Shown piece by piece: positions 26,008 through 27,252 of a stretch of DNA of 47,065 nt. The position numbers and the translations under genes are program-made. The first letter of the stretch is position 1; each line of letters starts with the position of its first letter. The DNA lies in contig CAKZOW010000094.1 of assembly GCA_937138345.1 (NCBI GenBank), forward strand, positions 1 through 47,065, written 5' to 3'. Source of the stretch: an uncultured archaeon. GTDB taxonomy: Archaea; Nanobdellota; Nanobdellia; Woesearchaeales; UBA583. The notes beneath the pieces were generated by a model. It was not told the DNA's origin. It searched no databases and saw nothing but the letters and a program-made list of their open reading frames with translations.

Positions 26008-27150
26008 ATGGCAAATAATAAATTAGTTGAAAAATTTAGAGAAGAAAACCCAGGTTTTCCTCAATATATCCTTGATGAATTAAACTCAATTCTTCCAAAA
26101 GGAGTAAAAGATGCAGATGTTAAGAAAATTTTAGAAAATGTTCAAAATGAATATCAAGATTCTCTTATCTCATCCAATGAAGCAATTGGTGTAATTACTG
26201 CTCAATCAGTTGGAGAGCCTTCCACACAGATGACATTAAATACATTCCACTTCGCGGGAGTAGCTACTCAATCAGTTGAAGGTTTACCTAGATTAATTGA
26301 AATTTTAGATGTTAAAAAAACATTAGAACTTCCTCAAATGAAAATCTTCTTGAAAAAAGATTTAAAATTAAGTGAAGATCAAATTAAAGTTGTTGCAGCT
26401 AAAATTAAAGAAACAAAATTAGTTGAATTTGCAAATCAAAGTGATATTTCAGTTGAAGAAAATATTGTTACAATCCAACTTGACTCAAAACAGTTAAGAA
26501 AATTAGAAGTTGAAGAAGAATCTATTATTCCTCTATTAGATAGGAGAATTAGAAAAACATCTTCAGTTGAAAATGGTGTTTTAACAATTACTGGAGAAAA
26601 AGTACCTTCTCTTAAAGCTTTAATGAATATTAAAGAAATGGCTTTATCTTCAGTTGTTTTTGGAATTAAAGGTGTTAAAGAAGTAACTATTTTAAAAGAA
26701 GATGGAGAATATATGATTTTAACAAACGGTATTTCAATGAAACATGTTTTAGCAATTCCCGAAGTTGATACTTATAGGGTTTCATGTAATGATATTGATG
26801 AAACATATTCAGTTTTAGGAGTTGAAGCAGCAAGAGCAGTTATTATGAGAGAAATTATGGAAGTAGTTAAATCTCAAGGTTTATCCATTAATGAGAGACA
26901 CGTATTACTTATTGCAGATGTAATGACTTATACTGGAGAGCCTAGAGGAATGACTAGATTCGGTATTGTTGCAGATAAATTAAATGTTTTAACAAGAGCT
27001 TCCTTCGAGACTCCACTTAAACACATTGCAAGAGGAGCATTAATGGGAGAAGAGAACAGATTATCATCAATTACAGAAAATGTAATGACAAACCAGATGG
27101 TAAATGTTGGAACAGGAATGCCTAGAGTTAGCGTTAAGAGCAAAAAGTAA
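26008..27150 (+). CDS. rpoA2: RNA polymerase subunit A'' (C-terminal part of the largest subunit)
   Basis: 380 residues from the ATG at 26008; an earlier in-frame ATG at 25990 lies inside rpoA' and is less likely. The trigger-loop/jaw motif [27 protein letters not shown] is present in abridged form from about residue 56, and the clamp-closing [20 protein letters not shown] toward the end. The last eleven codons read [10 protein letters not shown] and stop. The same peptide, with one residue changed and every codon after Met re-encoded, reappears at 27212-27244 beyond a hairpin and a CG box. The stop codon is the loop of a 9-bp stem (27140-27159). Confidence 0.96.
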
Positions 27151-27252
27151 ACTTTTTGCATCTTATCCTAACGAAAGGCGTCAAGAGCTAAGTCTTGGCT
27201 GAGCGTTTAGAATGCCACGTGTGGGTGTAAAATCTAAGAAATAGATTTTTTT
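27118..27252 (+). repeat. Re-encoded echo of the rpoA'' end with hairpins
   Basis: The gene end (27118-27150) encodes [10 protein letters not shown] and stop; 62 nt later 27212-27244 encodes MPRVGVKSKK and stop. All ten codons after ATG differ at base level, nine of them synonymously (TAA/TAG included). The gene end forms a 9-bp stem with the stop in the loop (27140-27159). The echo end forms a 7-bp stem with a 5-nt loop (27230-27248), also containing its stop, and is followed by T7. Between them are GGCGTC (27178-27182) and a CAAGA/TCTTG hairpin. Confidence 0.85.

Follow-up and report, generated by a model that had tools for sequence, protein, structure and literature searches.

The rpoA'' end and other arrays in the window

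The window, i.e., the whole stretch of 47,065 nt that was analysed, carries the gene of RNA polymerase subunit A'' (rpoA''), and the last codons of this gene are found a second time downstream. The features of this locus are listed here, with asterisks in protein tails denoting stop codons.

26008-27150, + strand: rpoA'', an open reading frame matching Pfam RNA_pol_Rpb1_5 (E 8e-50); the upstream, gene-attached copy of the tail is formed by its last 10 codons (27118-27150)
27118-27181, + strand: P1 stem-loop of the insert (by folding), from the ATG of the re-encoded tail through the stop codon to GGCGT
27180-27209, + strand: P2 hairpin GUCAAGA/UCUUGGC and the 3' end of the insert, TGAGCGTTTA (sequence and folding)
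27212-27244, + strand: echo (displaced) copy MPRVGVKSKK* (sequence reading)

The upstream tail at 27118-27150 reads ATG CCT AGA GTT AGC GTT AAG AGC AAA AAG TAA, and the downstream tail at 27212-27244 reads ATG CCA CGT GTG GGT GTA AAA TCT AAG AAA TAG. An earlier note on this DNA had claimed that the tail is echoed with its codons re-encoded, and this was confirmed: all ten codons after the ATG, stop included, are changed, nine of them synonymously and one as Ser/Gly. The insert is indeed present, and the end of the protein has been kept at the expense of nucleotide identity. Two adjacent stems separate the copies, with P2 directly following P1, and the upstream copy together with the insert has a predicted folding energy of -34.1 kcal/mol (z = -4.0, no shuffled sequence being as stable). 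The stop-containing stem reported for both copies is strong at the upstream one (GCAAAAAGTAAACTTTTTGC) and comes down to AAATCTA/TAGATTT at the downstream one. Likewise, the GGCGTC box is present at 27177-27182, not as an independent motif but mostly as the 3' arm of P1, where GGCGU pairs with AUGCC, the tail's own ATGCC, via a U-G wobble. The hairpin after this box, at 27180-27199, is real.

In the comparison with relatives that the same note had called for, a single tail and no insert were found at rpoA'' in four of the five congeners (G001, G003, G004 and G005); the fifth, G002, shows a different duplication, of the type C described below. The upstream copy looks slightly more similar to the ends of the congeners, which are too distant (59-67% identity) to tell which copy has the ancestral codons. 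Separately, in the rpoA'' of an unrelated archaeon of the Micrarchaeota (locus L136, around 11023), the tail MKGKKKE* is repeated past a hairpin insert with one synonymous change.

Further copies of gene ends and gene starts were found at other places in the window:

344-361, - strand: echo HFLDE* of a flavodiiron-type gene ending at 401, with 3 of 6 codons synonymously changed (sequence, Pfam)
6317-6346, - strand: ftsJ array copy 3, MFIVCFNKQ*, with one synonymous change against copy 1 (sequence reading)
6376-6405, - strand: ftsJ array copy 2, MFIICSSKL* (sequence reading)
6428-6457, - strand: family-D insert ACAAGAAC...GTGTCTGGT in the ftsJ array (D pattern match)
6493-6522, - strand: tail MFIVCFNKQ* of an FtsJ-like methyltransferase, gene-attached copy (sequence, Pfam)
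17449-17458, + strand: AATGGCAAGA, echoing the 5' end of the gene that starts at 17519 (sequence)
17459-17490, - strand: antisense family-D insert that separates the 5' echo from the start of the 17519 gene (D pattern match)
41083-41210, + strand: end of a KaiC-like gene (arlH position), TATGCATAA three times with two-hairpin units (sequence, Pfam)
44793-44861, + strand: arlJ unit 1, P1 stem holding the MFSSYFS* tail, ACGTC, P2, GAGA (fold z -6.5)
44863-44923, + strand: arlJ unit 2, re-encoded MFSSYFS* tail, P1, GGCGTC, P2, GAGA (fold z -6.6)
44925-44985, + strand: arlJ unit 3, MFSSYFT* tail, weaker stems (fold z -1.2)
44986-45012, + strand: arlJ terminal copy IFSSYFAQ*, decayed (sequence reading)

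The arlJ array thus contains three units and then a decayed terminal copy, and the decay grows in the downstream direction. The gene starting at 17519 is presumably S15-like; the names arlJ, S15-like and DnaJ-like (the last used below) are tentative assignments, in part from context, with no Pfam hit. The flavodiiron-type gene probably carries an echo. Some D-type inserts appear to be nested in other D-type inserts (GACAAG...GACACAAGAACG...GTGTCTGGTGT...GTCTAGT), in the window at 6428-6520 and at loci L219 and L230. The window also holds, at 19441-19584, a tRNA gene found by Rfam and absent from the ARAGORN report; it is 144 nt long and therefore probably contains an intron.

Spread of the echoes and anatomy of the inserts

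The genome (G000) was available as one draft metagenome bin of 162 contigs, some of them foreign, estimated to be about 95% complete; about 0.9 Mb of its 1.8 Mb was read. When translated C-terminal tails were first scanned against downstream DNA, 20 ends among 636 open reading frames scored at least 22, and the shuffled control gave none. A refined scan found an echo of the gene's own C-terminal codons and stop within 260 nt downstream at 41 of 1006 gene ends (about 4%), against 0.3 expected from shuffled neighbours, and an independent repeat scan at the DNA level detected 28 repeats at 3' ends. The copies, up to four in an array, are separated by structured, non-coding inserts of 35-180 nt. 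Many of the genes bearing echoes are essential; outside the window they include UvrC, RNase HII, a fragment of the PolD large subunit, MutL, a TGS GTPase, SRP54 and an IF-2-like factor, among others. TGS GTPases had been considered as a target common to this genome and G004, and this was rejected, as they are paralogues with 26% identity. At L052 (18150-18520), the second tail beyond a B-type insert differs in amino acids (FLFWIKSKK* vs FFLINNFT*), a possible change of the C-terminus.

The earlier note had placed the phenomenon in an essential protein gene, and it is not confined to such genes: tRNA 3' ends and a few 5' ends are affected as well. The 3' ends of tRNA-Leu, -Thr, -Arg and -Pro are repeated by units with the same features, and the Trp and Cys tRNAs lie close to further family-D inserts. 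At some gene starts, the first codons are present twice with an antisense D insert in the middle; this is so for the gene starting at 17519 (ATGGCAAGA) and for a DnaJ-like gene (ATGGTTAAAGAC/ATGGCTAAAGAT). Other 5' echoes encode MKKALFFD (two synonymous changes) and MIQSIIFD/MIKAIIFD. As they lie at tRNA ends and, in antisense, at gene starts, the inserts are not only features of mRNA. This placement favours an element acting at the DNA level and oriented outward from the gene. An mRNA intron would lie in sense orientation and be removed from the RNA, and the antisense inserts at gene starts speak against such a reading. In the congener G002, at L164 (3100-3700), the 3' end of tRNA-Glu is repeated downstream, and a C-type core separates tRNA-Glu from tRNA-Arg.

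The inserts fall into four types:

Type A: P1, then CGTC or CGAC, P2, GAG
Type B: about 80 nt, CTTTGGTGAGGCTTTTCTTTAGTG...AAAGAAAAGATCGATGCG
Type C: GGGCTTGAGC...GCGAAACCC
Type D: ACAAGAAC...GTGTCTRGT

An exact search for repeated k-mers failed to find a conserved core because the cores vary in sequence, and patterns specific to each family worked. The D motif occurs 19 times in this genome, with no occurrence in the reversed control or in the five congeners; across 353 genomes of the order, the D pattern gave only two other single matches, apparently by chance within coding sequence. No insert matched Rfam at gathering or relaxed thresholds. The arm following the stop codon pairs best with the codons of its own copy in 5 of the 7 arrays compared, as illustrated by own-copy against other-copy pairing at rpoA'' (-28.3 vs -15.1) and arlJ unit 1 (-20.7 vs -7 to -10). 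Such pairing was seen in the A-type arrays of rpoA'', arlJ (units 1 and 2), L057 (all three units) and L073. Over all families, the matching of stem to codons was not significant (p 0.10), and stems therefore account for the A-type arrays only. A stop-codon hairpin as a general property of all genes was rejected.

In the relatives, the frequency of echoes among sampled gene ends was 0 of 160 in G001 and G003 together, 2 of 105 in G004 and 1 of 63 in G005. The FtsJ gene of G005 (59% identical) also has a D-like insert, with VCFNKLR*, and this case, together with the two in G004, indicates that the phenomenon exists in the genus and is strongly expanded in G000. As at rpoA'', other orthologues in relatives are single-tailed, and in loci from 80 archaeal genomes, with 3662 open reading frames, no more than two or three additional echoes turned up.

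Codon changes between the copies

Copies in 36 genes differ by 118 synonymous and 16 non-synonymous codon changes. In the 23 recent pairs, with no more than four changed codons, 30 changes are synonymous and 3 are not, whereas 33% synonymous would be expected if one copy drifts (p 4.6e-12). This rules out that one of the two copies never experienced selection on its protein sequence. Detection of echoes by protein similarity is biased against decayed copies, but long tails with few changes give the same pattern, and the 28 repeats from the DNA-level scan were found independently of it. The tail IANGTINLN* is present in four copies, with up to 7 of 10 codons changed relative to the first one and no amino-acid change.

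The copy pairs range from identical to fully different, which is what graded divergence under protein-level selection would be expected to produce. Re-encoding of every codon to destroy a recognition site, the reading put forward in the earlier note, is thus not general. At rpoA'', the difference of all nine codons for the same residues has a probability of 2.8e-4 even at complete synonymous saturation (codon usage of the genome itself, uncorrected) and of 0.024 with uniform codons, and at L245, where 6 of 6 codons are changed, p is 0.002 against saturation. These are the only cases beyond saturation at p<0.01 among 46 adjacent copy pairs genome-wide; avoidance of identity is therefore hinted at in some loci but does not hold generally. 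Upstream and terminal copies showed no difference in codon commonness over the genome.

Origin of the units

Several known systems resemble the units in part. Integrative elements such as e14 and phage 21 in icd attach at the 3' ends of tRNA or protein genes, and their attachment copy restores the end with mainly synonymous differences; they are kilobase-sized and carry a site-specific integrase. The units likewise restore gene ends, tRNA 3' ends included, but they have many unrelated targets, form tandem arrays and are accompanied by neither an element-encoded integrase nor a kilobase body. REP/BIME and Rickettsia palindromic elements are, like the inserts, short, structured, non-coding and dispersed, but are not known to carry a tail of the target gene. 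Inserts with RNA structure, lying close to terminators or within tRNA, are also known as group IIC and archaeal BHB introns, whereas here the inserts are also antisense, have no Rfam match or reverse transcriptase, and need not have their exons joined. BHB splicing was rejected, as the intron start and the start of exon 2 are the same sequence and not complementary. CRISPR repeat-spacer arrays share a repeat-insert-repeat architecture with seeming growth at one end, but here each repeat is the end of the gene itself and the inserts are recurring families. The Cas1 integrase expected for CRISPR-like or casposon integration was not found in the genome.

The nearest precedent, which makes the likeness to homing elements drawn in the earlier note an apt one, is found in fungal mitochondria, where mobile open reading frames (mORFs) with a foreign C-terminus are known in atp6 of Allomyces and in atp6, atp9, cox2 and nad3 of Glomus (PMC3630166). 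These inserts, acquired from another lineage, supply their own C-terminal coding end and displace the native one downstream, and in atp6 the DNA identity is as low as 63.5% although the protein stays about the same; they are about 1 kb long, encode LAGLIDADG or GIY-YIG endonucleases, and hit few genes (PMC3630166). The archaeal host genes similarly have an alternative C-terminus and a second copy downstream that differs mainly synonymously. Unlike mORFs, the inserts are 35-180 nt long, non-coding, present in tens per genome, and also found at tRNA ends and gene starts.

Because the fungal cases share the signature of a C-terminus mainly synonymously different from the displaced one, we favour miniature, non-coding, homing-like mobile elements that restore gene ends, an explanation in which we place about equal belief and doubt. 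Each unit would bring a structured core of 35-180 nt and a copy of the end of the interrupted gene, i.e., its last codons plus stop, a tRNA 3' end or, in antisense, its first codons. The gene would keep an intact end, and the old end would stay beyond the core, displaced downstream. New units would enter beside the gene body and so build tandem arrays, although a simple order with the youngest copy next to the gene is contradicted in two arrays, where copy 2 has decayed further than copy 3. Both copies would at some time have served as the functional gene end and been selected for their protein sequence, one in the lineage or strain that supplied the unit and the other in the recipient until displaced, which would explain why they differ almost only synonymously. 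The units may have been transferred between strains or species in a homing-like manner, with a mobilising enzyme acting in trans. In favour of these end-restoring elements are the excess of echoes over the shuffled control and their rarity in the congeners, the synonymous bias, the 19 occurrences of the D motif, the inserts at tRNA and 5' ends, the pairing of post-stop arms with their own copy and the downstream decay in arlJ. The four IANGTINLN* copies count against them, as their unchanged amino acids would require very recent displacement, and so do the equal codon commonness of gene-attached and terminal copies, the lack of significance of stem-codon matching over all families and the outcome of the searches for a mobilising gene.

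Searches for the mobilising gene in the bin, about 95% complete, found no reverse transcriptase (RVT_1, PF00078), TnpB or Y1 transposase (Y1_Tnp, TnpA), and the genus lacks the Y1 transposase family that goes with REP elements. When autonomous versions were sought through tail echoes at distances of up to 9 kb, only tandem paralogues sharing sorting tails were obtained and no insert with an endonuclease gene; the inserts of 35-180 nt have no open reading frame. The LAGLIDADG genes of the bin lie in inteins or are free-standing on contigs of viral and foreign appearance, which did not match two core patterns. These contigs (L241-L244, on C74, C117 and C49) include one of 127 kb with a DNA-polymerase-like gene, and they are probably not the archaeon's own chromosome.

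The main rival, which we consider possible though rather improbable, is reversible or programmed use, with units of tail and core that often excise and re-enter or are spliced from mRNA, so that every copy is repeatedly the working end and is selected in the same lineage. It would account for the IANGTINLN* array and for the two arrays in which copies 1 and 3 are nearly identical and copy 2 is different, and the P1-P2 units look like structured recombination sites. The antisense inserts at gene starts and the inserts at tRNA ends argue against its splicing form, the decayed MFIICSSKL* and IFSSYFAQ* are evidence that function can be lost in copies lying downstream, and no recombinase with such a role was identified. 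A comparably tentative reading is that of an undescribed class of mobile, protein-less gene-tail cassettes defined by structure (tail copy in P1, linker, P2), whose tail is under pressure to diverge in DNA sequence from the adjacent one; they would be tolerated at any gene boundary because the gene always gets a working end.

Active re-encoding, a reading that goes back to the earlier note, supposes here that a nuclease or guide associated with the element cuts the native end, that only recoded insertions survive, and that neighbours are forced to differ. The rpoA'' and L245 pairs beyond saturation and the alternation of copy types in the arlJ array are consistent with it, but we regard it as improbable, given that many adjacent copies are identical or nearly so, that so few pairs exceed saturation, and that no candidate nuclease is clearly this archaeon's own. 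A simple tandem duplication, in which replication slips at hairpins close to gene ends and the copies then drift, agrees with the copies that are identical including the flanking hairpin sequence (L034, L040, L055 and rpoA'' of G002); it is quite improbable, being already disfavoured by the synonymous excess, by the recurrence of core families at unrelated genes and by the confinement to gene boundaries. An artefact of assembly or binning that joined strain haplotypes, conceivable in a draft bin with foreign contigs, is very improbable, as the inserts within one array differ from each other, individual copies fold distinct stems, tRNA genes are involved and similar arrays occur in the independent assemblies G002, G004 and G005.

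If the end-restoring elements are real, this archaeon offers a case at genome scale of tiny selfish DNA sitting without harm at the ends of essential genes, among them those of RNA polymerase, SRP54, MutL, UvrC, FtsJ, the IF-2-like factor and tRNAs. Two questions follow, namely by which enzyme a hairpin of 35 nt is moved and whether recoding guards the element against its own recognition. As the copies record codons that were once functional, insertion history and selection become readable from one genome, and the units have the look of miniature mobile DNA of a new kind, one that leaves the host gene intact.
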